A DNA stretch of 43,264 nt from a virus. Position 1 is the stretch's first letter. Each line of letters opens with the position of its first letter. Where the stretch lies: positions 1-43,264 of IMG/VR virus record IMGVR_UViG_3300033145_001054. One strand, given 5' to 3'. Position numbers and translations under genes: made by a program. The notes under the pieces are model-generated. The model was given only the letters and a program-made list of their open reading frames with translations. It was not told the DNA's origin and searched no databases. This document shows positions 6,772 through 29,987 of the stretch, piece by piece.

Positions 6772-6936
6772 ATGATGAAAACCAAAAAAAATTTTTTACA
6801 AGAAATAGAAGATTTTATTGATAAAAATGCTATAGAATATGATGATGTTTCTATAACTATAGAAATAGAAAACGTAAACCTGTTAAACATATCTTCAATT
6901 AAATCTGATAGATTCCATGGAAAATTAAAATGTTAA
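6772..6936 (+). CDS. Hypothetical 54-residue acidic protein
   Basis: MMKTKKNFLQEIEDFIDKNA and an amphipathic beta-like part (VSITIEIENVNLLNI). AAGGTGA lies about seven bases upstream. The end overlaps the nuclease-helicase gene by seven bases, which indicates coupling. No family recognised. Confidence 0.55.
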   Translation: MMKTKKNFLQEIEDFIDKNAIEYDDVSITIEIENVNLLNISSIKSDRFHGKLKC

Positions 6937-9080
6937 GGCTGAGTTATTCCCAAATAAAGTTATTTAAGACATGTAAGCGTAATTATTATTATAGATACGT
7001 ACTAAAGCTAAAAGAGAAAAACATTGAGACAAAGTGGATGAACTTTGGTAGTGCAATGCATAAAGTTCTAGAAGACTATTATAATGATACTAACATCAAT
7101 TATCAACAAAATATGATAGAACAGTGGAAAATATTTAAGCTTGATGGTAGAATGGATTTCAATTCTTTCCGTGTTCACGTTCTCAACGGGATAGCTTTAC
7201 AATTAAAAGTCACTGACGTTGAAGAAAAATTCTTTTTTAGAGTAAAAGATTATCAAATAGTAGGCTACGGTGATATTATAAATAACAAAACAGGTCTTAT
7301 TCTGGATTGGAAAAGCGGTACTTATTCGAAGTTTAAAGCAGACGATTACAAAAACCAGCTTAAATATTACGCTTATTTTTTTTATAGAAAGTATAACAAA
7401 TTACCTAGCGAGTGTAGTTTATTTTTCAACAAAAAAAGTAAGCGTGTAAGTTTTACTTTTAGCAAAAGTGATATAAAAGAAGTTGAAGAAGAGATTATAC
7501 AAGTAGGTGATGAAATTACTTATATGAAAGCGACGCTTAAAAAATCACATGATTGGGTCCAAAATATTAAATCGTGTTTCTTTTGTGGATATAAAAGAGC
7601 GTGTTTAGAAAACTCTACAGAGCTTAAATTCCATATTGTAATAAAGAACAATTTTTGCTTTCTAGAAGGTGATGTTACTCCATTATTGGTTGAGGGAATA
7701 GACAGAGAATTGAAATTTGATTTAAATAATAAATATTGGATTATGAAACAAGTTTTAGCAAAAAGCAACGGTGTTCCACCCAATAATTATGACGATATAG
7801 GCACCAAACATCTTTTTGATAAAATCCACAGAATGTTTGGTTTCGGGCACTTAAATAAAATAAAAGAGATTCTAAAACAATATGCTGAATATTATGATAA
7901 AATCTTAAATCTTGAAGTGGAAGATTTACGAGACAAAGATGTTCTTAATTCTAAACTAGATATTATGCCCGATAAGTTAATCACGGATAAAATATTCAGA
8001 CCTTATCAAATAGAAGCTATCGAGAGCTTTATTTATCATAACGGACTAGGTATATTTGAAATCGCAACAGGTGGCGGTAAAACTCTAATTGCGAGTGAAC
8101 TAATACGTATGGTTGACACTAATACTTTATGGATTATAGATAGAAAAGAACTGCTTTATCAGACTAAAGACGTATTAGAAAAACTTTTCGGTTTTGAAAT
8201 TGGATTAATTGGTGATAGTGTAAATAAACCACTTGGAATAACAATAGCTACAGTGCAAACTTTAAGCCAAGATATTCCACGATTTAAAAGCTTTCTAAAT
8301 AAAGTCAATTTTATCGTTGTAGATGAATTTCATAAAAGCGCAGCAGAGAGTTATCAAAAAATATTTAAAGAGCTACGAAATACTAAATACAGACTAGGAA
8401 TAAGCGGTACTGTTTATCGTGATGACGGAAATACACCAGTGCTTTTTAGTCTTATAGGTGAAGTGATATATAAAAAGTCCGCAACTGAGTTAGAAATTCT
8501 TGGTTATCTTATGAAGCCAGAAATTAAATTTTTGGAATTAGAGCAACGAGGTAGTTGGGTTGGAACTTATCCAGAAGTTTATGAATCTGTTATAGTTGAT
8601 AATATCGAAAGAAACAATATTATATATGGATTAACTAAAAAATATTTGGAAGAAGGTAAAAAAATTTTAATACTTACTAATCGAGTGGCACACGGTGAGA
8701 AATTATTAAAACTTTTCGAGTTTAATAAAATAAATGTTTATTTTATTCACGGGTCTGTTAATAATATAGCAAGAAAAGAAAAGTTTCAAGATTTTCGAGA
8801 TAATAAACTAATGATACTTATTGGAACTATCTCGATATTTAGCGAAGGAATTGATTTACCAGATTTGGATGTGATTATAAACGCTAGTGCAAATAAAGGT
8901 GAAGTTAAGACTATTCAGAGTTTAGGAAGAATACTTCGAAAGCACGAGACTAAAGAAAGAGCTATCTATATAGACTTCATTGATAATAGTAAATTCCTTA
9001 AAAAAGCAAGTAAGTCACGAATAGAAACCTTTAAGAAAGAGGGACACAAAGTAAAAATAGCAAAGTATCAAGATATGTAA
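6930..9080 (+). CDS. RecB/Cas4-like nuclease fused to SF2 helicase
   Basis: 716 residues in two modules. Residues 1-230 form a PD-(D/E)XK nuclease of the Cas4/AddB type: SYSQIKLFKTCKRN with C15, FGSAMH with H44, GD115, LDWK (D126, K128), and a Cys cluster C216, C219, C225 that with C15 could hold a [4Fe-4S] cluster. Residues from about 355 form an SF2 helicase: FRPYQ, Walker A ATGGGKT (379-385), DEFH (465-468), SGT (492-494), and a C-terminal domain with FSEGIDLPDLD and SLGRILR. It may resect or process ends for recombination, replication restart or packaging. The order nuclease-helicase in one chain is less usual than separate Cas4 and helicase genes. Confidence 0.85.
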   Translation: MLRLSYSQIKLFKTCKRNYYYRYVLKLKEKNIETKWMNFGSAMHKVLEDYYNDTNINYQQNMIEQWKIFKLDGRMDFNSFRVHVLNGIALQLKVTDVEEKFFFRVKDYQIVGYGDIINNKTGLILDWKSGTYSKFKADDYKNQLKYYAYFFYRKYNKLPSECSLFFNKKSKRVSFTFSKSDIKEVEEEIIQVGDEITYMKATLKKSHDWVQNIKSCFFCGYKRACLENSTELKFHIVIKNNFCFLEGDVTPLLVEGIDRELKFDLNNKYWIMKQVLAKSNGVPPNNYDDIGTKHLFDKIHRMFGFGHLNKIKEILKQYAEYYDKILNLEVEDLRDKDVLNSKLDIMPDKLITDKIFRPYQIEAIESFIYHNGLGIFEIATGGGKTLIASELIRMVDTNTLWIIDRKELLYQTKDVLEKLFGFEIGLIGDSVNKPLGITIATVQTLSQDIPRFKSFLNKVNFIVVDEFHKSAAESYQKIFKELRNTKYRLGISGTVYRDDGNTPVLFSLIGEVIYKKSATELEILGYLMKPEIKFLELEQRGSWVGTYPEVYESVIVDNIERNNIIYGLTKKYLEEGKKILILTNRVAHGEKLLKLFEFNKINVYFIHGSVNNIARKEKFQDFRDNKLMILIGTISIFSEGIDLPDLDVIINASANKGEVKTIQSLGRILRKHETKERAIYIDFIDNSKFLKKASKSRIETFKKEGHKVKIAKYQDM

Positions 9081-9815: not shown

Positions 9816-10562
9816 ATGATAAAAATAAAGGCAAATAAGTTAAAAGATTTTTTGATCAAAACAACAGCAGATGGCTTAGTGAGTGACGCTAAGCTTATTT
9901 TTAGTGTAACAGGATTAAAAATGCAACATAAAGACGAGCCAGGAGTTATTTGTATTGTAGGTCTTTTGGATAAATCAAACTTCAATGAATATGAAGAGCT
10001 TATTTTAGACGTGAAAAGCACTAAGACGCTAATAAACGCCCTAAAGACGTTTAAGGATAATATGATAAATATTGTCAAGAAAGATAATATGGCAAAAATT
10101 TTAGACGAAAACGGAGGCTTCGATTTAGCTTTAGCTGAAAAGATAATATGCTATAAAGAATCACAGGGAGAACTAGCTTATAAAAATAAGATTCTAGTTA
10201 AAAAATCCATGGTAGATACTATTGTAGAACGTAGTAGTATAGTAGCTAGTGACGAAGTAATAATATTAAATAAAGATAAGGAACTTAGTTTCTCGATAGG
10301 TAAAGAGAGTGACTTAGCTAATAGTAAAGCAATTAGTAACGTCGAGGAAGAGCTTAAAACTAGCTTCGATTTAGCTTATTTTAAATCTATCACTGCGAAA
10401 CTGGACCCAATATTTGATTTTTCTATTGGAGTAAACGGAATGCCAAGTCGCTTCGAAGAGAAGACCGACAAATATAGTATCACTTATTATATAACACCGA
10501 TAAGCGAGAAGAAAGAAGATAAAATAACAGAAGAACCTAAAGAAGCAGAGAAATCTGTTTAA
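9816..10562 (+). CDS. pcn: PCNA-type sliding clamp
   Basis: 248 residues beginning MIKIKANKLKDFLIKTTADG, the usual first strand and helix of archaeal PCNA. Strand-helix alternation continues through two clamp-like domains, including SFDLAYFKSI and KYSITYYITPI near the end, which match the typical C-terminal PCNA block. A 20-residue charged tail follows. The start at 9816 (GGTGAGG about nine bases upstream) is chosen over an in-frame start at 9789. The clamp forms a ring on DNA and anchors polymerase, ligase and other factors. The virus also encodes a loader. Confidence 0.8.
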   Translation: MIKIKANKLKDFLIKTTADGLVSDAKLIFSVTGLKMQHKDEPGVICIVGLLDKSNFNEYEELILDVKSTKTLINALKTFKDNMINIVKKDNMAKILDENGGFDLALAEKIICYKESQGELAYKNKILVKKSMVDTIVERSSIVASDEVIILNKDKELSFSIGKESDLANSKAISNVEEELKTSFDLAYFKSITAKLDPIFDFSIGVNGMPSRFEEKTDKYSITYYITPISEKKEDKITEEPKEAEKSV

Positions 10563-10833: not shown

Positions 10834-11200
10834 AATAATTGATAGATTTACAATTTTCCGACTAAAAAAAGAAAGAATAGGCGGAGAAGAAATAACAAAA
10901 GCTTGTAAAAGTTATTCTGATGAAATAGGTGATTTTGCTTTAAAGTATGAAATTTTTGACTCTAAGTGGATTAAAAATTTACATAAAATAAATTCGAAGA
11001 TATGGGATTTAGAAGCAGATATAAGAAACGCTACACTTAACGATTTAAAAGAAATCGGTAGAAGAGCTTTATTAATTCGTGACGCTAATAAAGAACGCAT
11101 AAGAATCAAAAATGAAATAATTCGTATTACAGGGATAGGTTTTAAAGACGTGAAAATCAATCATTGTTCGGAGGAGAAAAATGCAACAAATATTCAATGA
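10814..11200 (+). CDS. DUF6165-like helical protein
   Basis: 128 residues. The pattern IDEIIDRFTIFRLKKERI, then INSKIWDLEADIR and IRDANKERIRIKNEI, resembles a phage and bacterial family (DUF6165-like, from memory) built of helical hairpins. Function is not known. The gene overlaps the clamp-loader gene by 20 bases, and the GGAGGAG of that gene lies in its coding sequence. Confidence 0.55.
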   Translation: MEMPIDEIIDRFTIFRLKKERIGGEEITKACKSYSDEIGDFALKYEIFDSKWIKNLHKINSKIWDLEADIRNATLNDLKEIGRRALLIRDANKERIRIKNEIIRITGIGFKDVKINHCSEEKNATNIQ

Positions 11201-12068
11201 AAAATACAGACCTAATAAGTTCAACGAAGTGATAGGATTAGATAGCGAAATCCCTAAACTTGTAAAAGACGGTAATATTCCTCATCTTCTTTTTATTGGT
11301 CCAGCTGGAACGGGGAAAACTACTACAGCCAGAATTATCATTAAAGAATTAGACGCAGATAGTCTAGTTTTAAACGCTTCCAAAGAGCGTGGAATAGACA
11401 CGATAAGAAATAAAATAGAGCCGTTTGCATCTAAAGCTAGTGATAAGATTAAGATAGTGTTTTTAGATGAGTTCGACCATACAACACCTGCATTTCAAAC
11501 AGCGTTACGTAATTTTATGGAAACTCACTCACTAACGACGAGATTTATTGCAACGTGTAATTATCCAACTAAAATAATTGATCCTTTAAAAAGTCGATTT
11601 GCTCAATTTAATTTTTCTAGATATGACGAAGAACATAAATGGCGATGGCTTAAGGGTATTGTAGATACAGAAAAAATAAATATAGAAGATTCAACTTTGT
11701 TTTTATTAGTGCGAAAATATAAAGACGATATACGAGCCATGATAAATTTCTTGAATAAAAACAAAAAAAAAGAAATCAAAAAAGAAGATATTACAAGAGA
11801 AGACGTAGTTTTGAATATTCTAGCTAAGCTTAAAGATAAGAAATGGCACGAGCTAAGAACTTCTTTATTATTAGAGAATCTGGATTATGCTAGTTTAATC
11901 GAAGAGTGCGAGATTATAATTTTCAATCACAAAGCTATACCGTTAGAAGCTAAACGAAAAGCAAATATATTAGCTAGTAAATACCAGTTCGAGATGTACT
12001 TTAGCTTTAACAAAGAATTAGCTTTTAGTAGCTTCTTAGCAGAATTGGAGAGCGTATTACAATGGTAG
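11181..12068 (+). CDS. rfcS: Clamp-loader ATPase, RFC small subunit-like
   Basis: 295 residues. FNEKYRPNKFNEVIG at the N-terminus is the RFC box. Walker A GPAGTGKT is at 40-47, Walker B LDEFD at 95-99, sensor-1 ATCN near 127, and SRF (138-140) stands for the RFC SRC arginine finger. The C-terminal helices form the collar. It opens and loads the PCNA ring using ATP. It is a little shorter than host RfcS. No RFC large subunit is seen; the protein at 13829 may be its partner. Confidence 0.9.
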   Translation: MQQIFNEKYRPNKFNEVIGLDSEIPKLVKDGNIPHLLFIGPAGTGKTTTARIIIKELDADSLVLNASKERGIDTIRNKIEPFASKASDKIKIVFLDEFDHTTPAFQTALRNFMETHSLTTRFIATCNYPTKIIDPLKSRFAQFNFSRYDEEHKWRWLKGIVDTEKINIEDSTLFLLVRKYKDDIRAMINFLNKNKKKEIKKEDITREDVVLNILAKLKDKKWHELRTSLLLENLDYASLIEECEIIIFNHKAIPLEAKRKANILASKYQFEMYFSFNKELAFSSFLAELESVLQW

Positions 12069-12256
12069 AAATAAAAGGAAGTGTTTGGTTTAGTTTAATG
12101 AGTTGTAATATTATAGGAATAGTTACTACTAACAATGGATATGAAGAAAAAGCATATATTGGAATAGGACAAGGGTTAGATACACAAGAAGACGAAAAAC
12201 ATATTGCATCATATGGAACTCCTTTTCCATTAAAACAAGCAAAAGAATTAATATGA
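12062..12256 (+). CDS. Hypothetical 64-residue phage-type protein
   Basis: MVEIKGSVWFSLMSCNIIGI followed by EEKAYIGIGQG and a C-terminal IASYGTPFPL. I recall similar short proteins in phage genomes without assigned function. It overlaps the clamp-loader stop and the glycosyltransferase start by a few bases each. Confidence 0.55.
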   Translation: MVEIKGSVWFSLMSCNIIGIVTTNNGYEEKAYIGIGQGLDTQEDEKHIASYGTPFPLKQAKELI

Positions 12257-13686
12257 AACAAATAAGAGTGCTTTACTATATGCACATAAGTACGAGACGA
12301 TTAGTCAGTGATAGTAATTATTATACGCTTCGAAATCTTTTAAAGTATATTAATCGATATTATTCAGACCATTATTATTTTTACATAACTTATCCGACGA
12401 GTAGCGAAAACGATATAGTTATGAAAGAACTAAAACAAGAGTTTAAAAATATTAATCCTGTACCTATAAAATATCACACGACGAACGCTTTTTTCAGAAA
12501 TTCTATAGACTGGGAAAGTATGAATAAGGAAGCTCGTGAGTACGATATTATTTTAAGCCAAACACCAGAAATTAATTTCGAACTATTAAGCTACGCTATT
12601 AGCAAAGGAACATATTGTCCATTAATAAGTTATTCTAATTGGCTTCCTAGTTTAGTGAGTAGACCTATTAATGCTAATTATGATAATGGTCAAAGAGAGC
12701 GATTAGCAATGGAAGCTAAGTATTTTTATAATTATATCTTAGCTTACAAGAATTATAATAATTCTTTGCATGGAACTAAATTATTAAAAGAATCATTCGA
12801 AAAAATAGACCATGGACCTTGGAAGCAGGAGATATTAAATAGTATTACACCATTATATCTTACGACTGACCACGAAGAAATTGATAAATATAAGCCGGCA
12901 AACTTAAAAAAATTCGATATTCCTACTATCGTATTTAATCACAGACACAATGTTTATACCGGATTCACAGACTTTTTTAGAGCTATCGAGAGAATAATAA
13001 AACTTAGACCTAATTTAAAGTTTAAGATATTTATGACCTCAGTAGGAGAAAACGATAAGACATATAAATTCGATATTCCTAATGAGTATTTCTTAAATAA
13101 GAAAACATTACCGTATCCGGAGTACGTCGAGACACTTTGGAAATGCCATATACAAATTAGTCCACATACAGGAGATAATCAATGGAGTATGTCACACTTC
13201 GACGGTATGTTTGCCAATTTAGTTCCACTTTATAGACGAGGACATTTTTTCGACGAGATGTTTGTTGGTTTAGATAATCTTGATAAATATAATTTTAAAG
13301 ATGACGATGAATTAATAGAAAAACTTATATTTATGATTGAAAATATTGATAAATTCGTTATCCAAAATGATATAATTTTTAAACATTTTCGGAATAACTG
13401 GGTATATGATAAACTTGTTCATTCTTGGGCAAAAGCTATAGATGATGTTTATAGCGTTGTAATGACATATCCTAGTTCTAAAAAATTAAAATTATTGAGC
13501 CAAGAAGACTTTCCTATGTCGTGGCAAGCCTTAAAAAATAAGATTAACATAAGCGACCAACGACCCCTTAATAATTATAGAAAAACTATTAAAGAAATAT
13601 TTAATTTAAAAGAAGATATGGAGAATAAAGAGATAGTTCTATATAATAACGACGATAATATACGAAAAACGAGGGGATTCTTTTGA
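12253..13686 (+). CDS. GT-B-like glycosyltransferase with clamp-tail motif
   Basis: 477 residues. An N-terminal Rossmann-like half (RVLYYMHISTRR, then EYDIILSQTPEINFELL) and a C-terminal half starting PTIVFNHRHNVYTGFTDFFRAI look like a GT-B fold, with SPHTGDNQWSMSHFDGMFAN in the donor-site position. Unlike the other glycosyltransferases, it lies inside the replication block, between clamp loader and polymerase. It ends KTRGFF, the same C-terminal tail as the protein at 13829. T4 alpha-glucosyltransferase is known to bind the T4 clamp, so a DNA glycosyltransferase that works at the fork is an attractive inference. The substrate is unknown. Confidence 0.6.
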   Translation: MKQIRVLYYMHISTRRLVSDSNYYTLRNLLKYINRYYSDHYYFYITYPTSSENDIVMKELKQEFKNINPVPIKYHTTNAFFRNSIDWESMNKEAREYDIILSQTPEINFELLSYAISKGTYCPLISYSNWLPSLVSRPINANYDNGQRERLAMEAKYFYNYILAYKNYNNSLHGTKLLKESFEKIDHGPWKQEILNSITPLYLTTDHEEIDKYKPANLKKFDIPTIVFNHRHNVYTGFTDFFRAIERIIKLRPNLKFKIFMTSVGENDKTYKFDIPNEYFLNKKTLPYPEYVETLWKCHIQISPHTGDNQWSMSHFDGMFANLVPLYRRGHFFDEMFVGLDNLDKYNFKDDDELIEKLIFMIENIDKFVIQNDIIFKHFRNNWVYDKLVHSWAKAIDDVYSVVMTYPSSKKLKLLSQEDFPMSWQALKNKINISDQRPLNNYRKTIKEIFNLKEDMENKEIVLYNNDDNIRKTRGFF

Positions 13687-13832
13687 GCGACGATAACTTA
13701 TCATTTATTGATAAAAGAATAACAAAAATATCATTTGCAGGAACAATAATAGAAGAAAAAAGAGTAAAAGTTCAAGGAGAAACATTAGCTGATGTTAAAA
13801 AATGTTTTGACGAAGAGTGGAAGAAAGAATGA
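13683..13832 (+). CDS. Hypothetical 49-residue protein, TTG start
   Basis: The TTG at 13683 overlaps the preceding TGA and the stop overlaps the next ATG (ATGA), so the frame fills the gap exactly. The protein is a beta-like segment (ITKISFAGTIIEEKRVKVQG) followed by an acidic helix. The match to gene junctions on both sides is the main support. Confidence 0.5.
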   Translation: MSDDNLSFIDKRITKISFAGTIIEEKRVKVQGETLADVKKCFDEEWKKE

Positions 13833-14350
13833 CTGGATTCTTCGGTAGCATAAAATATAATCTTTTACCCGATGATTATAAAGAGACCAGTAAGACTAAT
13901 CCGTTTATCGAGTATAAGCGAGTATTAGAAGGGTTTAGTCCTGACCAAAATATGTTAATTCCACTCGTGAATTGGTTTTCTAATCACAAGCTTAATATTA
14001 CCACGATGCAGAGAGCTAATAGAAATCTATTTTATAATAAAAAGTCTATTATAGCCCATTATATCGCTCTAAATATCAATCGCTCCGTAAGATTTATTAA
14101 GTATCCTAAGACGAAGAAAGAGCCTAATGAGCTAGATTTTTTAATTCCATATATATTAAGATACTATTCTTGGTCACAGCGAGAGTACGAATTTCATAAA
14201 GACTTAATCAACTTAGAAGACAGAGATTTACACTTGACTTTACATAGAGCGTTCGCACTAGAGAAAAAAGAACTTAGAAAATTGGGGATTAAGCAAGAAA
14301 AAATAAAAGTTAAATTCGAAAAACATCAACGTACTCGAGGTTTTTTCTGA
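13829..14350 (+). CDS. Putative clamp-loader partner subunit (T4 gp62-like)
   Basis: 173 residues. The block LIPLVNWFSNHKLNITTMQRANRNLF, then a helical segment and a KY/KRF-like turn, and ILRYYSWSQREYEFHKDL matches the order I remember for gp62-type clamp-loader A subunits (PF/LVN, ANxMN-like, KRFxKW-like, YYGYS-like). This is pattern memory, not a search. The gene lies between the RFC-like ATPase and PolB, as gp62 does between gp44 and gp43 in T4. It ends RTRGFF, a possible clamp-binding tail. ATG at 13829 is chosen over GTG at 13817. Confidence 0.5.
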   Translation: MTGFFGSIKYNLLPDDYKETSKTNPFIEYKRVLEGFSPDQNMLIPLVNWFSNHKLNITTMQRANRNLFYNKKSIIAHYIALNINRSVRFIKYPKTKKEPNELDFLIPYILRYYSWSQREYEFHKDLINLEDRDLHLTLHRAFALEKKELRKLGIKQEKIKVKFEKHQRTRGFF

Positions 14351-14859
14351 TGAAAGAATCACGATACGGAGCAAAAAACGGAAATTGGAAAGGAGGCAGA
14401 AGAGTATCTGACGATGGAAGAATATTCATATATTCTCCTAATCATCCTAATCCTGATATAGGAAGAAAAGGCACTAGATATTGTTATTTATATAGATTGA
14501 AAATGGAAAAAAAATTAGGAAGATATTTAAAAAAGAATGAGGTTGTTCATCATAAAGATGGTAATCCAAGTAATAATAAAATATATAATTTAGAAGTTAT
14601 GACAAGGTCAAAACACTGTGGTTTACATTGGGTTATAACACATAGAAAAAGAAAAACTAAAAGATATGAAGAAAAACTAGAATTATATGAAAAATCTATT
14701 TCTTTATATTATCAAGGATTATCAAGAGAAAAAATATGTAATATTTGTAATATAAATATATATGAATTTACTACTTTATTTAAAGATTTTGATTTAGAAA
14801 TAAGAGGAAATGCAGGAAAATATAATTCTAATTATAAACACGGAAGGATGTGCAAATGA
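14350..14859 (+). CDS. HNH endonuclease (homing type)
   Basis: 169 residues. The N-terminal GAKNGNWKGG is typical of free-standing phage HNH endonucleases. The HNH core is VVHHKDGNPSNNKIYNLEVM (H67, H68, D70, N80) with a later SKHCGLH. The C-terminal half is a helix-turn-helix-like DNA-reading part (YYQGLSREKICNICNI). It sits between the putative clamp-loader subunit and PolB. Such enzymes cut related genomes and spread by repair. Confidence 0.8.
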   Translation: MKESRYGAKNGNWKGGRRVSDDGRIFIYSPNHPNPDIGRKGTRYCYLYRLKMEKKLGRYLKKNEVVHHKDGNPSNNKIYNLEVMTRSKHCGLHWVITHRKRKTKRYEEKLELYEKSISLYYQGLSREKICNICNINIYEFTTLFKDFDLEIRGNAGKYNSNYKHGRMCK

Positions 14860-16688
14860 ATAAAAAGGATATATTGATTCTCGATATAGAAACATACTCT
14901 GAAGCAGATATTAATCAAGAGTTTGATAAATACGTCGAAACAGCAAAAGTCAAATGGATAGGATTCTATTCGTATAATAGCGAGAAATATCACGAGATTG
15001 AAGTTTTAGGTAATGAAAATCTAGTGATAGAATTTATTAGAGCTCATAAATTTATAATCACTTTTAATGGTGATGATTTTGATATTCCAATATTGAAAAA
15101 TAATAATCTATGGCCTGAAGGTTATAAAATAAGTGGTGACTTAAAAAAGATATTAAGCTCTAATATTCTTTGGGGTAAGAAACGCGGAGAATTGATGGGT
15201 TATAAATATAAAAAAGATAAATTGAAAATTATGTCAAAAGTTATGGGTACACCTGTAGAAAAAGGAGATATAGATTATATGATTTTTAAGAAAGATATTT
15301 ATAGCGACGACGAGAAAACAGAAATTAAAAAATATCTTAGAATTGATATAGAGCTAACTAAATTTTTATTTGATAAAGTATATAATTTCTGGTTACCGTT
15401 TAGCAATTTTATTAGTGAAAAAAATAGAGATAAATATTGTTGGATTACAAGCTCTATAGCTTCTGTAGTCTATAAAACGGCTTGTAATATTATGAATTGG
15501 CCAGAGACATACGGGGAGAAAGGGGAAAAAACTAAAGGTGGCGGGAGAACAATAGAGCCAAGAGTTGAAGAGGCTTGGGATGTCTGGTATTTGGACGTTA
15601 CAAGCCTATATCCACATATCTACGCTATGTTTAGTTTACTTTGTGAAGTTAATGCTGAAACAGAAAAAGCTTGGCACGGAAATCAATTTTTTAAAGTTGA
15701 AGGTTATTATGATATTTCAAAACCTCATAAGTTAGCTCTCGATATGATGCAGAAACTTAAAACACGATTAAAACTTAAAAAAGAAGACCCTACAAATGGA
15801 TTAATATACGCCTATAAAATCTATCTTAACACGTTTTATGGAACCAATAGAAGCAAAGTATTTGAAAATCTATATACTCCTAATTCAGGTAAAGATTGTT
15901 GTTATTTAGGTCGACAAATTAACAGAATAATGGAAACTATGATGGATAATATGGGTTACACTACTATTGCAGGAGATACAGATTCTGTTTTTGTTCAATA
16001 TCGTGACGGTATTAAAACTTATGATGAAGTAAAAGAAAGCTTAAAAATGATAGTTGCTTTTATTAACACCAATGTTCCTTTTCCACAAGAAACTTTTAAT
16101 ATTGATATAGAAAAAAAAATAGACTATATTATGTATGTAAAAGAAGAAGGAAAGAAAGCTAAGAAAAAGAACTACGCTTATGTTTATTCTAAAAAAGATG
16201 GCTCTAAGCACTTAATTGTTATGGGATTACCTATTATTAAGACTAATTCCACTAAGTTAGGACCATTAATCTTAGAGAAGCACATTAAACCAAGAATGAT
16301 AAAAGAACTACGCGGTAAATTTGAAAAATCCTGGATGGAAAAGTTAATAAAAGAAGAATTAGAAAAAGACCTAGGTTTAATGCTTATCGAGTATAAATCC
16401 AGTGCTTACACGTCTTATAAGTTCTTAGGGCGAAGCTGTTTAACAGCACAGATTAGTAAGCACTATCTAAATGAAAAGTCAGGGATTATATCGCTAATTA
16501 AGAATAAACGAATTGGACGGGTAGGCGGAGCTTTTAAATATTGCACTTTAGAAGAATCTAAAGATTTGGATATCAGCGATTTGGATTTAAAGAAAGTCTA
16601 TAATGAATTATCTCCCTTTGTCAATGGTGGATTAGAATATAATCCTAAAAAAATAACAAGAAATAATATTCAGGGGTTTTTTAAATGA
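14856..16688 (+). CDS. polB: Family B DNA polymerase
   Basis: 610 residues from the ATG at 14856 (GGAAGG eight bases upstream, ATGA overlap). The 3'-5' exonuclease has DIET (10-13), NGDDFD, and a YLRID block. The polymerase has motif A LDVTSLYP (D247), motif B KIYLNTFYG (K321 to G329) and motif C GDTDS (D374, D376). All catalytic residues are present. It is shorter than the usual 750-800 residues because the N-terminal domain is reduced. The C-terminus NNIQGFFK resembles a PIP-type clamp-binding tail. It should be the replicative polymerase. Confidence 0.92.
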   Translation: MNKKDILILDIETYSEADINQEFDKYVETAKVKWIGFYSYNSEKYHEIEVLGNENLVIEFIRAHKFIITFNGDDFDIPILKNNNLWPEGYKISGDLKKILSSNILWGKKRGELMGYKYKKDKLKIMSKVMGTPVEKGDIDYMIFKKDIYSDDEKTEIKKYLRIDIELTKFLFDKVYNFWLPFSNFISEKNRDKYCWITSSIASVVYKTACNIMNWPETYGEKGEKTKGGGRTIEPRVEEAWDVWYLDVTSLYPHIYAMFSLLCEVNAETEKAWHGNQFFKVEGYYDISKPHKLALDMMQKLKTRLKLKKEDPTNGLIYAYKIYLNTFYGTNRSKVFENLYTPNSGKDCCYLGRQINRIMETMMDNMGYTTIAGDTDSVFVQYRDGIKTYDEVKESLKMIVAFINTNVPFPQETFNIDIEKKIDYIMYVKEEGKKAKKKNYAYVYSKKDGSKHLIVMGLPIIKTNSTKLGPLILEKHIKPRMIKELRGKFEKSWMEKLIKEELEKDLGLMLIEYKSSAYTSYKFLGRSCLTAQISKHYLNEKSGIISLIKNKRIGRVGGAFKYCTLEESKDLDISDLDLKKVYNELSPFVNGGLEYNPKKITRNNIQGFFK

Positions 16689-16819
16689 AATGCAAAAGAT
16701 GTAATCGTGAGCTTAAAAATATAAAATCTATAGAAAGATGTTTTGGTAAACGTTGTTTCGAGCTAACTTTTGGAAAAGAAAAGAAAGCTAAAAAAATTGT
16801 CAGGGGTTATTTTTATTGA
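16685..16819 (+). CDS. DUF6011-like zinc protein, 44 residues
   Basis: CKRCNRELKNIKSIERCFGKRC has the spacing of the DUF6011 zinc finger (CxxCgrxLxxxxSIERGxGxxC). The start overlaps the PolB stop (ATGA). The C-terminus is KKIVRGYFY, a variant of the GFF tail seen in three neighbours. It may be a small clamp-associated adaptor. Confidence 0.65.
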   Translation: MKCKRCNRELKNIKSIERCFGKRCFELTFGKEKKAKKIVRGYFY

Positions 16820-23278: not shown

Positions 23279-23492
23279 AGGTTCTTCTATAACTCATAAG
23301 ATACGCCACTTAAAAACAAACTCAGGGAATAATTTTTCAATAACTATCTCTAAATCAACAGCTGAAACTTTTAGTGGTTGCCGATTAAGAGAAGTGGTTT
23401 TAAGCGACGGTATTTTTTTAACGGCAGGAAGTTTTTCAATAATAGAAGAACAATTAATCAATAAAAAAAATTTAAAACAACTTAAAAAATGA
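23268..23492 (+). CDS. Possible AbrB/SpoVT-like DNA-binding protein
   Basis: 74 residues. KTNSGNNFSITISKSTAETF followed by LREVVLSDGIFLTAGS has the strand pattern of a swapped-hairpin AbrB N-terminal domain. The usual GDxV box is not clear, so confidence is low. Placed directly before the glycosyltransferases, it could be a local regulator. Confidence 0.4.
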   Translation: MSYRGSSITHKIRHLKTNSGNNFSITISKSTAETFSGCRLREVVLSDGIFLTAGSFSIIEEQLINKKNLKQLKK

Positions 23493-24724
23493 TAAAACCA
23501 AAAATATTATGGCTTAGTGATTCCACACTTACTACAACTGGATTCGCAACAATATCGTGGAATATTCTTAATAGATTAAAAGATGAGTTTGAGTGCCACG
23601 CTTTAGGTCACAATATGATTGGACAAACATTGAAACCTGGTGTTATTTTTGAAGATAACACCAAACTTGACTTTTATCTTCACGGAACTGGAGGAGCTAA
23701 ATATAGTATGAACAATATTAGTAATAAAATAAGAAAATATGATATTGATATTTTTGGTGGGTTACTCGATACTTTTATGTTATACGAAGCAGGTTTTATG
23801 CAAATAGATACCAGTCCAGCTAAGACGTTTTTTTATTACCCTAGCGACGGAGGAGGTTGTCTGCCTCGTTACTGTGAGAATATCTTACAAAAAATTGAAG
23901 TTCCAATTGCTATGAGTAAATTTGCCCGTGACCAAGTACATAAAATTTATGGTATAAAGAGTGAGTATATACCTCACGCTTACGACACTAAATGTTTTTA
24001 TCCTTTAAGCTCTACAAAAAAGGAAGTTCTTAGAGATAAATGGCAATTACGAGATAAATTTGTTGTAGGTGTCGTAGCTAGAAATCAAGGAAGAAAAATG
24101 CTTGATAGAACTATTAAAGCTTTCTCTATTTTTTGCAAAGATAGACCAGACGCAATACTTTTAATGCATACAGACCCTATGGATATGGCTCAAGTATTTG
24201 ATATTAATACGTTAATTCGTCGTTTCAATATCACTAATAGGGTATTATTCACAGGAACTTCATTATTTGATCCTTTCACGTATAAACAAATGAATGAAGT
24301 TTATAATCTTATGGATGTATTTTTATTGACTACTTCAGGTGAAGGTTTCGGAGTTCCAATTGTTGAAGCTATGGGGGTAGGGATACCCCAGCTTGTTACC
24401 GATTATACAACAACTAAAGAGCTAGTGATAGACGAGATAAAAACAGGTGAATCTATTAAACTAGTAGGTGAAACAGAAGAATGTCCTTATCCCCATACTA
24501 ACGAAGTACTCGATGGCACAACAACTGGTTCGTGGGATGTAGAGCGAGGGTTTTGTAGTATCTATGATTGTGCCGATAAACTTAATCTTATGTATGATAA
24601 ATGGAAAACTTCTAATTTAAATATTTACATTAAAAATTCACTAACTAAAGCTAAAAAATATTATACATGGGAAGCCGTAATGCCATCTTGGAAAAAATTA
24701 TTATGGAGACTATATGAAAAATGA
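23489..24724 (+). CDS. GT-B glycosyltransferase (GT4-like)
   Basis: 411 residues. The N-terminal domain starts KILWLSDSTLTTTGFATISW. The C-terminal domain has VGVVARNQGRKMLDRTIKAF and the donor-site EGFGVPIVEAMG (E285 and E293), the E-x7-E pattern of GT4. It transfers a sugar from a nucleotide donor to an unknown acceptor. It overlaps genes on both sides by four bases and opens the cassette. Confidence 0.85.
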   Translation: MIKPKILWLSDSTLTTTGFATISWNILNRLKDEFECHALGHNMIGQTLKPGVIFEDNTKLDFYLHGTGGAKYSMNNISNKIRKYDIDIFGGLLDTFMLYEAGFMQIDTSPAKTFFYYPSDGGGCLPRYCENILQKIEVPIAMSKFARDQVHKIYGIKSEYIPHAYDTKCFYPLSSTKKEVLRDKWQLRDKFVVGVVARNQGRKMLDRTIKAFSIFCKDRPDAILLMHTDPMDMAQVFDINTLIRRFNITNRVLFTGTSLFDPFTYKQMNEVYNLMDVFLLTTSGEGFGVPIVEAMGVGIPQLVTDYTTTKELVIDEIKTGESIKLVGETEECPYPHTNEVLDGTTTGSWDVERGFCSIYDCADKLNLMYDKWKTSNLNIYIKNSLTKAKKYYTWEAVMPSWKKLLWRLYEK

Positions 24725-24882
24725 AATATTGTTACATTTGTAGTAAACCATATACGTGGAATAAGTTTAATAATTGTTGTTCAGAACAATGTGAGAAAGA
24801 ATATAAATTGGAGATTAAAAATGAAAACAAACGAATCCAAAGAAGAAAAAAACTTGAAAATAACAGTATGTTCGGTTGTTAA
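24721..24882 (+). CDS. Small Cys-rich zinc-finger-like protein, 53 residues
   Basis: MKYCYICSKPYTWNKFNNCC then SEQCEKEYKLEIK: a CxxC ... CC-x3-C treble-clef-like pattern followed by a basic helix. Its start overlaps the preceding stop (ATGA), and its second half overlaps the next glycosyltransferase in another frame by 62 bases. The normal Cys spacing argues that it is real. Confidence 0.5.
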   Translation: MKYCYICSKPYTWNKFNNCCSEQCEKEYKLEIKNENKRIQRRKKLENNSMFGC

Positions 24883-25573
24883 AAATGACACATTTTTTTT
24901 AGAAATGATGCTTAAATCTGCTCTAGAATTTGCAGATGAAATAATAATTACCGATGATTCTGATGATGATAAAAATCTAAAACTATGTGAAAAACTAAAT
25001 AGAGATAACAAAATAAAACATTTTGTAAATCATTTTGGCGATAATTTTGGAAAAGGAAGACAATTCGCTCACGACCAAGCAACAGGTGATTGGATTTTAT
25101 GGCTTGACGCTGACGAAGTGATACACGAGGGTAATACTAAAATAATACCCAAATTAATTAAACAATTAATTAGTTTTGAAATAGATGTCTGTCATGTAGA
25201 ATATTTACATTTTATTAATGATTTTACTCATGTTGATAATAGTTGTAATCCTCATATAGGGTTATATCGTCTATATAAAAATTACGGAAAAGAAATAAAA
25301 TTTATAACAACAAATCATAGTTTACCAAAATATAATTGGAAAAAACTAATATTTACAGATAAAATATTAATTTGGCATCTTGGATATTTACGAGGTATGG
25401 AAAAAATAAAAGAAAGATTTTTGAGAAATTATCGGTATGGTACATTAGAACAACCTCGATGGCGTGATTGGCATTATTTTGGTGATTATCCAACAAGAAC
25501 AATTGATCCTAAAATTATACCTAAAGTGCTTCGTAATGGTTATCTTATGGATTTAGGAGATAGTTTCACATGA
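24821..25573 (+). CDS. GT-A glycosyltransferase (GT2-like)
   Basis: 250 residues from ATG 24821, with GGAG upstream; an in-frame GTG at 24791 has no such site. ITVCSVVKNDTFFLEMML and IIITDDSDDD are the GT2 nucleotide-binding strands. LDADEV (D96, D98) is the metal-binding DxD. YRLYKNYGKEI and HSLPKYNWK belong to the acceptor side. It is similar to the lipopolysaccharide-type glycosyltransferases that extend surface glycans. Confidence 0.8.
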   Translation: MKTNESKEEKNLKITVCSVVKNDTFFLEMMLKSALEFADEIIITDDSDDDKNLKLCEKLNRDNKIKHFVNHFGDNFGKGRQFAHDQATGDWILWLDADEVIHEGNTKIIPKLIKQLISFEIDVCHVEYLHFINDFTHVDNSCNPHIGLYRLYKNYGKEIKFITTNHSLPKYNWKKLIFTDKILIWHLGYLRGMEKIKERFLRNYRYGTLEQPRWRDWHYFGDYPTRTIDPKIIPKVLRNGYLMDLGDSFT

Positions 25574-26361
25574 AAAGCGTACTAGTTATTGGTTCAGAAG
25601 GATTTATTGGTAAAGAAGTTGTTAAACAATTAGAGAATGAAAATTATAATGTTGTTAAGTTTGATAAAAAATTAAATCCAAATAATGATACATTATTTCA
25701 TGATTTTGTATTAGATTATGAATATGATTATGTTATTAATTTAGCAGGATTAGTTGGATTGAAATTATGTTTAGATAATCCTATCAACGCAGTTTATCAA
25801 AATATTTTAGGTGTTACTAGAGTTTTAGATGCTATGAAAAACTCTGATACTAAAATTATTCATATTTCAACTTGGGCAGTTGAAGGAAATTTAATTAATC
25901 CTTACGACGTAACCAAACTGGCAGGAGAAAATATGACTATGAGTTATATTAAGCGTGGTTTAATTAAGGGTTGTGTTTGTCGTCTAGGAACTACTTATGG
26001 TCCTGGGATGTCAAAACTAGGAGTTATTCCTTCAATGCTTAAAAAATTAAAAGAAAATAAACCACTAGTTATTTATGGGCGAGGAGAACAGATAAGACAA
26101 TTTACATATATTAGTGACACAGCCAGTGGTATTATCAAAGTTATGGAATCTGGAGAAAACGGAGAATTATACCACGTCGTAAGCGACGAAATCACTAGCA
26201 TTAAACAAATAGCTGACTCGATAAGTGAAGATATTGAATATGAAAAATCTAGAGAAGGCGACGAAAAATATACAGTTCTCAATAATAAAAAACTAAAAGA
26301 ATTTGGTTGGAAACCTAAAATAAATTTCAAAAAAGGTGTGGAATTGATGAAAAATGGATAG
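25570..26361 (+). CDS. NAD-dependent sugar epimerase/dehydratase (extended SDR)
   Basis: 263 residues. GSEGFIG (8-14) is the Rossmann NAD-binding loop; HISTWAVEG (S100), and NPYDVTK (Y112, K116) give the catalytic Ser-Tyr-K set; RLGTTYGPGMSKLGVIPSML and IRQFTYISDTASG follow as in UDP-sugar epimerases. It makes an activated sugar, for example by C4 epimerisation; the exact substrate is not clear. It is about 50 residues shorter than typical GalE but keeps all motifs. Confidence 0.85.
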   Translation: MKSVLVIGSEGFIGKEVVKQLENENYNVVKFDKKLNPNNDTLFHDFVLDYEYDYVINLAGLVGLKLCLDNPINAVYQNILGVTRVLDAMKNSDTKIIHISTWAVEGNLINPYDVTKLAGENMTMSYIKRGLIKGCVCRLGTTYGPGMSKLGVIPSMLKKLKENKPLVIYGRGEQIRQFTYISDTASGIIKVMESGENGELYHVVSDEITSIKQIADSISEDIEYEKSREGDEKYTVLNNKKLKEFGWKPKINFKKGVELMKNG

Positions 26362-27292
26362 AGAAAAACTATATACTAGCACGAGCCCTAAATTATATAA
26401 TTATTTAGACAGATTAAAAAACATTAAAGATTTAAATAAATGGCAACCTATAAATCTTCAAATAGCACCTACTGAAAAGTGTAATCTTAATTGTTCTTTC
26501 TGTTCTGTTAAAGAACGTGGGCATGAAGAACTATCTATTGAATCAATATTACAAGCTATCGTAGAATTTAAACAGCTTGGTTTATTAAGTGTAGAAATAA
26601 CAGGAGGAGGTGACCCTACACTTTATCCTAAAATAAACGAGCTTATATTATTCTGTAAAGCACTAAATTTAAAAGTTGGTTTAATCACTAACGGAATACT
26701 TTTAAAAGACAAAATTGAACAATTCGTTTTAGATAAATTAGATTGGCTTAGAATAAGTCTTAATGGTATTGACGAAGGAAAATGGCCTGCTATACCAAAA
26801 ATTAATGGAACTTTAGGATTTAGTTATGTTTGGAACTCTAAATCAAATGAAAAAATATTAGGTGAAATATATAAAAAATATGGTTGTCAATATAGTAGTT
26901 ATATAAGAATAGTTCCAAACTGTTTAGAACCAAAAGAACAAATAACATTAAGAGATACTGTAGCAAAATTGGTAAAAGATAATAACTACGAAGATAAAAT
27001 GTTTGTTCAAACAAAAGATTATTCTATTCACGATAAATGCTATATTGGTAATCTTAAACCATTTCTTTACACAGACGGATATATTTATCAATGTAGCGCA
27101 GTAGCTCTATATAATAGACGATTCGACGAAAGATGGCGAATTTGTCATATGTCTGAAATTAATAATCATTGGCCTTTTTGTAATAATTTATTTGATAATT
27201 CAATGTGTGAAAAAGGAAAATGTTTTTATTGTGACCAAAATAAAATATTAGACGATTTACAAATGGAGGTTGATAAAAATGGGTTTATCTAA
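26354..27292 (+). CDS. Radical SAM enzyme
   Basis: 312 residues. CNLNCSFC (C43, C47, C50) is the [4Fe-4S]/SAM motif. ITGGGDPTLYP is the GGE-like SAM-binding segment, and LKVGLITNG the next strand. The C-terminal quarter has further Cys (CSAV, CNNLF, CEKGKCFYC), which may bind a second cluster as in SPASM/twitch proteins. Within a glycan cassette it may modify a sugar or a peptide. Its overlap with the SDR gene and with the methyltransferase shows co-expression. Confidence 0.85.
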   Translation: MDREKLYTSTSPKLYNYLDRLKNIKDLNKWQPINLQIAPTEKCNLNCSFCSVKERGHEELSIESILQAIVEFKQLGLLSVEITGGGDPTLYPKINELILFCKALNLKVGLITNGILLKDKIEQFVLDKLDWLRISLNGIDEGKWPAIPKINGTLGFSYVWNSKSNEKILGEIYKKYGCQYSSYIRIVPNCLEPKEQITLRDTVAKLVKDNNYEDKMFVQTKDYSIHDKCYIGNLKPFLYTDGYIYQCSAVALYNRRFDERWRICHMSEINNHWPFCNNLFDNSMCEKGKCFYCDQNKILDDLQMEVDKNGFI

Positions 27293-27884
27293 ATTCGATA
27301 AATCATATTTTATAGGTGGAGCAGAATCTAATTATATTAATTATCCTAAACGAAAATATAAACAGTTAGCTAAGGATATTTCAAAAACAATTAAAGATAT
27401 CAAATATGATAATATATTAGATTTTGGATGTGCCACTGGTAACTTAGTAAGAGAATTTGTAAAAATGCGTTATTCTATTTATGGAACAGACATTAGTAAA
27501 TGGGCTATATCTTATGGAATTAGAAAATTTAATTTACAAAATAATATATGGTTATACAACAATACTTTATTAATATTCTCTAGTCTAATATTAATGTTAG
27601 ACGTTATTGAACATATGACATTAAAAAAAATAGATAATTTTTTAATTAAATTCAAAAAATATAAAGGGTTAAAAATATTAGTTCGTATTCCAGTGAGTGC
27701 TATTGAAGGACAAGATTTTGTTTTAAACTGTAGCAAAAAAGATAAAACTCATATTCAAGTTCACTCTAAAACTTGGTGGAGAAAATTATTCAAGAAATAT
27801 GGTTTTGAGATAACTAAAGTTATAGACGAGAAAGCAATATATGATTCGGATGGTGTAATAGCATGGGTATTAACAAAAGAATAA
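27279..27884 (+). CDS. SAM-dependent methyltransferase
   Basis: 201 residues; GGAGGT lies eight bases before the ATG at 27279. ILDFGCATGNL (46-56) is motif I and YGTDIS the acidic loop. MLDVIEHM matches the class I 'DVIEH' post-II block. Such enzymes methylate sugars or small molecules at the end of glycan synthesis. No target-recognition domain for DNA is seen. Confidence 0.8.
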   Translation: MGLSKFDKSYFIGGAESNYINYPKRKYKQLAKDISKTIKDIKYDNILDFGCATGNLVREFVKMRYSIYGTDISKWAISYGIRKFNLQNNIWLYNNTLLIFSSLILMLDVIEHMTLKKIDNFLIKFKKYKGLKILVRIPVSAIEGQDFVLNCSKKDKTHIQVHSKTWWRKLFKKYGFEITKVIDEKAIYDSDGVIAWVLTKE

Positions 27885-28687
27885 GTATACATATAGCAAT
27901 AAAAGAAAGAGCTTCAGAGCCTGCTCTACTTATTCAAAGCTTACGAACACAAACTTATCAAGATTGGGATTTAGTTATACTCGATGGAAATAAAATTCCA
28001 TTAGCTACTAATCATTTTTTTATATCATTAATCAATAGAGTTAAATTAGAAAGACATGGCGTGAATATAATAAAAGATGATTTGAACAAAGGTGTTTGCT
28101 ATGCGAGAAATAAAATTATTAAAGAAGATTATTTTAATAATCCGTTTGTGTGTCGTTTGGATGACGACACTATTATTCAACCTGATTACCTTGATAAGCT
28201 TATGGTTGTTATTAAATCTGGTTACGATATTGCTTCTGGTGTCACTCCCTTATTGGGTTATCCTGAGCTTATTAGAAGTACAAAAAAAGTCAAGCCAATC
28301 ATCAATAAAAAAGAATTTAACACGAAAGGCGAAATAACTAAATACGGTGATGATTGTGGTTACGCTTATCTAGAAAAAGAAATTATATCTACTCACGAAT
28401 TTCGGTCTTGTGCATTAATAAAAAAAGAAGTGATAGAAAAAATACAATATGAAGAAAACTTATCACCAACGGGCTTTCGAGAAGAAGCTTTTTTTAGCTT
28501 TAGAGCTATATATGCTGGTTTTAAGATAGGAGTACACACTGGAGCAATAGCTTATCACATCGCTTGTCCTAGTGGAGGAGTACGAAGTACCGATTATGGA
28601 ATTAGAGCACAGAGCGATGATAATTATTTTAAAAAATGGGTAAAAAAATTATATAAGAAAAATGGACCTATCAAAATACGTGGATAA
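27863..28687 (+). CDS. GT-A glycosyltransferase (GT2-like)
   Basis: 274 residues. SIHIAIKERASEPALLIQSL, LVILDGNK and the metal-binding LDDDTIIQPDYLD (100-102) mark a GT2 enzyme; ALIKKEVIEKIQYEENLSPT and EEAFFSFRA are the acceptor-side block. It overlaps the methyltransferase by 22 bases. It adds a sugar to the same unknown glycan. Confidence 0.8.
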   Translation: MGINKRISIHIAIKERASEPALLIQSLRTQTYQDWDLVILDGNKIPLATNHFFISLINRVKLERHGVNIIKDDLNKGVCYARNKIIKEDYFNNPFVCRLDDDTIIQPDYLDKLMVVIKSGYDIASGVTPLLGYPELIRSTKKVKPIINKKEFNTKGEITKYGDDCGYAYLEKEIISTHEFRSCALIKKEVIEKIQYEENLSPTGFREEAFFSFRAIYAGFKIGVHTGAIAYHIACPSGGVRSTDYGIRAQSDDNYFKKWVKKLYKKNGPIKIRG

Positions 28688-28775
28688 TTTTTATCCATTT
28701 GAACAAGAGTGGAAAACAGAATGGCGACGTTTAAAGAAACAAATAGAGAAATCGAATTCAGACCAGAAACAATGA
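28662..28775 (+). CDS. Hypothetical 37-residue protein
   Basis: MDLSKYVDNFYPFEQEWKTE followed by a basic helix. It overlaps the preceding gene by 26 bases and the next small frame by about 55. At most one of the two small frames here need be real. Confidence 0.35.
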   Translation: MDLSKYVDNFYPFEQEWKTEWRRLKKQIEKSNSDQKQ

Positions 28776-28870
28776 ATTTTTGGCAAAAGATTAAATGGTG
28801 TATAAAGTTATTTATGGGTTTTAAAACAATAATAAAAGTGAAAGAAAAGGAGAAATCAGATGAAAGTTGA
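28721..28870 (+). CDS. Hypothetical 49-residue protein
   Basis: MATFKETNREIEFRPETMNF then an amphipathic helix (WQKIKWCIKLFMGFKTIIKV) that could lie on a membrane, and a charged tail. It overlaps the next glycosyltransferase by 11 bases, in keeping with the genome's habit. Confidence 0.45.
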   Translation: MATFKETNREIEFRPETMNFWQKIKWCIKLFMGFKTIIKVKEKEKSDES

Positions 28871-29987
28871 TATTATAGGAAATATTTTTGGTTTATCAGG
28901 TTATGACAGACATACTCGTGGTTTGGCTAATGCTTTAAACGACGTAGGTATAGATGTTAAATTGTCTGTTTCACTTATAGAACAATGGGAGCGACAAGTA
29001 AACGACTTTGAGCTTAACGCTATCACTAAAACATTTGATAAAGATAGAACTATGATTGCTATTACACAGCCTCAACATTGGAGATTATATTTGGCTCAGA
29101 AACCTAAACACTTCTTTGGATTTTGTGTTTGGGAGGGAGATAAAGTTCCAGAATATTGGTTACCTTATTTATTTGATACAAGAGTTAATAAAATATTAGT
29201 TCCTAGTAATCACACTAAAGACGCTATTATTAAAACAATTAGAAATTATCCAAATATAACTGTTAAAAATCTTGATAATATAAATAAAACAGTAAATAAA
29301 ATTCATATAATACCTCACGGTTACGATAGTTCAAAATATTATCCAGATAAGAAAAAGCCAAATAAAAAATTTACATTTTTAGCTAATAAGGGCTGGAGCC
29401 AAGGAGCTTACGATAGAGGCGGAATGCAATATATTTTTAAGGCTTTTACAGAAGAGTTCACTAATAAAGATAACGTATGCTTAAAAGCTAAGATAAATAT
29501 GAGTTATAATGCTCCTAATTGGAATCACAAAGAAGAGCTTAAAAAAATAGGAATAATCAAAAACAAAGATACGCCTGAGATATTATTAAATCTGTCGAAT
29601 CTTAACGATAAGGCTTTGAATAATTTCTATAATGAAGGGGATGTTTTTATTTCTACATCAATGGCAGAAGCTTTTAATTTACCTGTGATAGAAGCTATGG
29701 CGACTGGAATACCAGCTATAGTTACGGAATTCGGAGGACAGAGTGACTTCGTTAATTCCGATAACGGGTATCTTATAAATAAAGGCCATCTAATAAACTA
29801 TAGTAAAGAAATAGCTTATGAGGAAACGAAATGGTTTAAGCCCTCGATAGCCAAAATAAGAAATGTTATGCGTAGAGCTTACGAAAATCAAAAAGAAGTA
29901 AAAGAAAAAGGAAAAAAAGCTTTATTAAAAGCTTCTGAATATACGTGGATTCAAGCCTCTAAAAAATTAAAAAAATTACTTTTTTAA
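28860..29987 (+). CDS. GT-B glycosyltransferase (GT4-like)
   Basis: 375 residues. MKVDIIGNIFGLSGYDRHTR begins the N-terminal domain; IPHGYDSSKYYP and FLANKGWSQGAYDRGGMQY the hinge; MAEAFNLPVIEAMATG (near 269-284) the donor site with both Glu residues. GGAG lies about eight bases upstream. It is the last plus-strand gene of the cassette, and its end forms half of a terminator hairpin. Confidence 0.85.
   Translation: MKVDIIGNIFGLSGYDRHTRGLANALNDVGIDVKLSVSLIEQWERQVNDFELNAITKTFDKDRTMIAITQPQHWRLYLAQKPKHFFGFCVWEGDKVPEYWLPYLFDTRVNKILVPSNHTKDAIIKTIRNYPNITVKNLDNINKTVNKIHIIPHGYDSSKYYPDKKKPNKKFTFLANKGWSQGAYDRGGMQYIFKAFTEEFTNKDNVCLKAKINMSYNAPNWNHKEELKKIGIIKNKDTPEILLNLSNLNDKALNNFYNEGDVFISTSMAEAFNLPVIEAMATGIPAIVTEFGGQSDFVNSDNGYLINKGHLINYSKEIAYEETKWFKPSIAKIRNVMRRAYENQKEVKEKGKKALLKASEYTWIQASKKLKKLLF

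Follow-up and report, generated by a model that had tools for sequence, protein, structure and literature searches.

In an uncultured tailed virus, four proteins encoded in the replication block have closely similar aromatic C-terminal tails, and, judged from their sequences, the tails as a whole set quite probably constitute a virus-specific sliding-clamp docking motif. The best explanation of these termini is a short C-terminal docking motif of the form [TIV]-[RKQ]-x-[FY]-F, which looks like the aromatic part of a PIP box minus its glutamine. The window analyzed was the whole record of 43,264 nt, and all four tails were read in its sequence exactly where the original prediction had placed them. 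The features concerned are as follows:

9816–10562, + strand: PCNA-like viral sliding clamp, the proposed partner of the tails (PDB profile matches, NCBIfam)
11181–12068, + strand: clamp-loader ATPase of the T4 gp44 type (PHROG 168, clamp loader, E = 7e-66; 53% identical to the orthologue in the related virus L031)
12253–13686, + strand: 477-aa protein with the C-terminal tail ...NIRKTRGFF
13660–13686, + strand: tail IRKTRGFF and stop codon, ending ACG AGG GGA TTC TTT TGA (from the sequence)
13829–14350, + strand: gp62-like putative clamp-loader subunit, 173 aa, ending ...KHQRTRGFF
14333–14350, + strand: tail TRGFF and stop codon, ACT CGA GGT TTT TTC TGA (from the sequence)
14350–14859, + strand: HNH endonuclease without a tail, ending YKHGRMCK (Pfam HNH_3, 4e-11)
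14850–16688, + strand: family B DNA polymerase (PolB), 612 aa, ending ...ITRNNIQGFFK
16647–16688, + strand: C-terminal extension of PolB, KKITRNNIQGFFK, and stop codon; lacking in the PolB of the related virus L029 (alignment)
16685–16819, + strand: zinc mini-protein, 44 aa, ending ...KKIVRGYFY

The pattern [RQ]G[FY]F occurred four times among the 69 plausible window proteins (13,832 residues), every time within the last six residues. When the motif is taken as given, the composition-based chance of at least four occurrences is about 5e-12. In a look-elsewhere test, for which the window proteins were shuffled and their C-termini scanned in a reduced alphabet, the observed sharing of any 4-residue pattern was reached in 5 of 2,000 shuffles, and that of any 3-residue pattern in 23 of 2,000. 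The sharing of the tails is significant, yet not astronomically so from the window alone, and a related virus in which two orthologous proteins are also tailed lends independent support (see below). Over the last 11–13 residues, the tails carry a net charge of +1 to +5. The HNH endonuclease was tail-less, in agreement with the original prediction, as was the product of the ORF at 13683–13832, which ends ...EEWKKE. The tail was also absent from the ligase, helicase, and primase of the window, all plausible clamp clients. The pentapeptide TRGFF is exactly shared by the 477-aa and gp62-like proteins, and its codons differ at all five positions (ACG AGG GGA TTC TTT versus ACT CGA GGT TTT TTC), which excludes a recent DNA duplication, a DNA repeat, or a copied RNA signal and indicates that selection acts on the peptide. 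A fusion of PolB with the zinc protein by frameshifting was considered and rejected, because a −1 slip on TTTTTTAAATGA encounters TAA immediately.

The replication block in which the tailed genes are located includes the genes for the clamp, the loader ATPase, the 477-aa protein, the gp62-like protein, the HNH endonuclease, PolB, and the zinc mini-protein, a GIY-YIG-like ORF, and also primase-like and Cas4-helicase genes. The product of the last of these (6930–9080) is a UvsW-like helicase fused to a PD-(D/E)XK (Cas4-like) nuclease, and the fusion is conserved in L029. The expectation that the virus encodes its own clamp was borne out by homology to PCNA: a two-sequence profile of the window and L031 clamps, used in an hmmsearch of the PDB, gave best matches that were all archaeal PCNAs (3lx1, E = 2.5e-5), and the product of 9816–10562 matched the (archaeal) sliding clamp of NCBIfam (2.6e-4), with no match in Pfam or PHROGs. 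The loader ATPase is itself aromatic-ended (SVLQW, 12033–12068; GGLQF in L031), and this conserved LQ[WF] ending may have a role in assembly. PolB matched Pfam DNA_pol_B (6.9e-8) and has orthologues in both L029 and L031. At 612 aa it is short, and when aligned with viral PolBs of 800–900 aa it is missing their N-terminal region.

The 477-aa protein had been described as a glycosyltransferase, a label we could not sustain: searches of Pfam, PHROGs, NCBIfam, and PDB and by tblastn returned neither a glycosyltransferase family nor any other family match. The name “gp62-like” for the product of 13829–14350 is based on a position downstream of the loader ATPase and on a weak colinear similarity to a member of PHROG 225 (gp62; hhalign P = 0.009, 42 columns); a PHROG match proper was not obtained. 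The zinc mini-protein is DUF6011-like with a score below the Pfam gathering threshold, and it matched PHROG 25989 (8e-5). Orthologues of the 477-aa and 44-aa proteins were found in neither L029 nor L031.

L031, a 125-kb record found with an alignment of the window and L029 PolBs, carries diverged orthologues of the clamp (39%–41% identity to the window protein), the loader ATPase (53%), the gp62-like protein (44%–45%), and PolB (44%–50%), and its gp62-like gene is likewise located downstream of the loader ATPase gene. Rather than the random C-termini that the original prediction named as its refutation, the homologous gp62-like and PolB proteins of L031 keep a C-terminal TK[SK]FF, ending IRKTKSFF and VRTKKFF, respectively, and these two were the only FF-ending ORFs among 259 non-overlapping ORFs of that record. 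The L031 PolB is encoded by two overlapping genes (L031:8121-11104), with a break at motif A that has the look of a split intein: an intein N-part containing an endonuclease-like stretch closes the product of the first gene, that of the second opens with a 38-residue intein C-part with an HN end followed by SLYPHIM, and Pfam Intein_splicing matched both genes (1.1e-7 and 6e-3).

The second relative, L029, is a 42-kb record reached via the helicase segment. Its helicase, p206, and PolB share 39%, 38%, and 44% identity (the last over 591 residues) with those of the window. The L029 PolB stops at ...NELKPFIKNEVV, exactly where the window PolB continues with NGGLEYNPKKITRNNIQGFFK, and so has no tail; three downstream frames were checked for a tail masked by a sequencing frameshift, and no tail-like peptide was present. 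Within this 42-kb record, whose classification is linear and which may be a fragment or otherwise incomplete, neither a clamp loader, sought with a family model that matches 14 of 14 control genomes, nor a clamp, sought with the window clamp as the query, was found. With one relative for each state, the tail was thus retained in L031 along with the clamp, the loader ATPase, and the gp62-like protein, and the PolB tail was missing from L029, where the clamp and loader were undetected. This pattern suggests, at the level of sequence, that the tail and the clamp module are gained and lost together. Because the tail tracks the clamp, loader, and gp62-like genes, its partner is most likely to be found in the clamp module, and the retention of the helicase and p206 in the tail-less L029 argues against either as that partner. 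A tailed L031 and a tail-less L029 are what a clamp-docking tail predicts, and not what chance or a translational signal predicts.

The tails might instead be by-products of translation, with Shine-Dalgarno-like AGGGG or GAGGT elements and a T-rich spacer preceding an overlapping start codon and the encoded amino acids being incidental. For the ORF at 12253, the gp62-like gene, and PolB in the window, AGGGG or GAGGT does lie 5–9 nt ahead of the overlapping start of the next gene. A distance of approximately 15 nt, however, separates the tail of the zinc gene from the next ATG, the FF codons lie outside the Shine-Dalgarno element, and the two copies of TRGFF use a different codon at each position. 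In L031, the gp62-like tail has no G-rich motif (ACC AAA TCT TTC TTC TAG), and behind the PolB tail comes a gap of >30 nt, with no overlapping or close gene; these L031 tails remove the translational reading of the three window tails, and we consider it very improbable. Still less credible is a chance coincidence of four short C-termini, or their shared ancestry through a small duplicated DNA segment. The generic motif scan leaves some room for coincidence, as 0.25 to 1.2% of shuffles reached the observed sharing, but the presence of the tail on orthologous proteins of the diverged L031 argues against chance, and the thoroughly different TRGFF codons argue against a duplicated segment.

A partner other than the clamp deserves somewhat more weight, although it too seems unlikely. 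The tails could bind another replisome protein, such as the loader ATPase, or connect the polymerase to the gp62-like protein, and since gain or loss affects the clamp, loader ATPase, and gp62-like protein jointly, the correlation with L029 cannot separate these candidates. Against this, aromatic C-terminal tails common to unrelated proteins are the standard route to the clamp in T4 and archaea, and a loader subunit would hardly depend on a PolB-type tail to contact the ATPase that is its own partner.

From this comparison, we infer that the clamp is the binding partner of the tails; which pocket they occupy and what the two accessory proteins do are proposed here on the same footing. Each tailed protein closes in a short, basic, and probably flexible stretch, with the motif at most one residue from the C-terminus. 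The two aromatic residues of the tail would enter a hydrophobic pocket of the PCNA-like clamp of the virus, in the manner of positions 7 and 8 of a PIP box. PolB docked on the clamp would gain processivity, and the ring would be kept in place for the loader by the gp62-like subunit, a task that falls to the RFC large subunit in archaea. The same clamp may also carry the 477-aa and 44-aa proteins, as the identity of their motif suggests. Single-chain AlphaFold models made without an alignment were unusable (pLDDT of 33 for the clamp and 39 for the gp62-like protein).

The proposed arrangement has a close counterpart in phage T4, in which gp43, gp55, and gp33 have similar, interchangeable C-terminal clamp tails (PMC2988020). 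In both cases, several unrelated proteins of one virus with its own clamp share near-identical tails (four in the window and two in L031), and the window loader ATPase belongs to the T4 gp44 family. However, the T4 tails are hydrophobic and acidic, whereas those of the window and L031 are basic (net +1 to +5) and mostly FF-ended, and the non-polymerase carriers are transcription factors in T4 but a loader subunit, the 477-aa protein, and the zinc mini-protein here. T4 also provides a non-replicase enzyme tethered to the viral clamp, as proposed here for the 477-aa protein: the DNA-modifying alpha-glucosyltransferase binds the clamp gp45 (PMC13216743). Unlike that enzyme, the 477-aa protein has no glycosyltransferase match of any kind.

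The tails also resemble the archaeal C-terminal type of PIP box (QxxPsi-xx-theta-theta) in their two C-terminal aromatics, basic flanks, and PCNA-type clamp (PMC6881253, PMC3504372). Archaeal PIP boxes occur at the very C-terminus, 34% of known PCNA-binding motifs have no Q, and positive flanks increase the affinity of PIP for PCNA (PMC6881253). The glutamine of position 1 is replaced by I, H, R, or K in the window tails and by I or F in those of L031. Position 4, canonically L, M, I, or V, is I in the window PolB and V in the zinc protein but a non-canonical Thr in four of the six tails (the 477-aa protein, both gp62-like proteins, and the L031 PolB). The aromatics of positions 7 and 8 are present throughout, as FF in five tails and YF in the zinc protein, and in all six tails at most one residue follows the second aromatic, an extreme C-terminal position like that in archaeal clients. 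The archaeal RFC large subunit is a clamp-loader subunit among the listed PCNA-binding proteins (PMC4929162); the gp62-like protein differs from it in not being an AAA ATPase and in its weak similarity to T4-type gp62. Small PCNA-binding proteins are also known, such as the 64-aa TIP (PMC4929162), which is a possible parallel, by analogy, for the zinc mini-protein. Taken together, these likenesses suggest that the kind of docking signal is already known from phage T4 and archaea and that its spelling is new.

Single-protein scans of IMG/VR with PolB, the gp62-like protein, and the 477-aa protein, a pattern search with a pair of PolB motifs, and two scans of genome contigs with alignments returned no relatives. 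The loader ATPase as the query retrieved distant loci only, and PolB motif A retrieved distant polymerases only. Some distant PolBs carry PIP-like ends (KTTLDLFFGG in L019 and L020, KQKTLEDW in L025), and they are too distant for comparison. GenBank phages were searched as well: PolB gave only cellular Pol II-like matches, and the 477-aa protein and the major head protein likewise found no relative there. No hits came from the Rfam and tRNA scans. Elsewhere in the window, glycine-rich repeat ORFs (GSGYGSG, GSGDGSGDASG) occupy the left end (47–292 and 811–1185), near-identical copies of TTAATTTACATAAATnATCTAAATAATG lie upstream of the genes at 425 and 1218, and 23489–29987 is occupied by a sugar gene cluster (group 1 glycosyltransferases and an NAD epimerase) that includes a radical SAM gene.

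More broadly, there is about an even chance that the window represents a lineage of uncultured tailed viruses with a private, glutamine-less clamp code, [TIV][RKQ]x[FY]F, which is fitted to their own PCNA-like clamp, drifts from virus to virus (L031 has TK[SK]FF in place of the TRGFF seen here), and has come to be used by proteins outside replication as well, so that uncharacterized proteins active at the fork could be recognized by it. If the tails are indeed clamp-docking motifs, a five-residue ending would flag the viral clamp clients in genomes whose proteins mostly match no family, and the 477-aa orphan and the 44-aa zinc protein would be assigned to the replication fork. Clamp-docking signals could then also be a private code of a virus, unlike the PIP box of the host, and be gained or lost along with the clamp.
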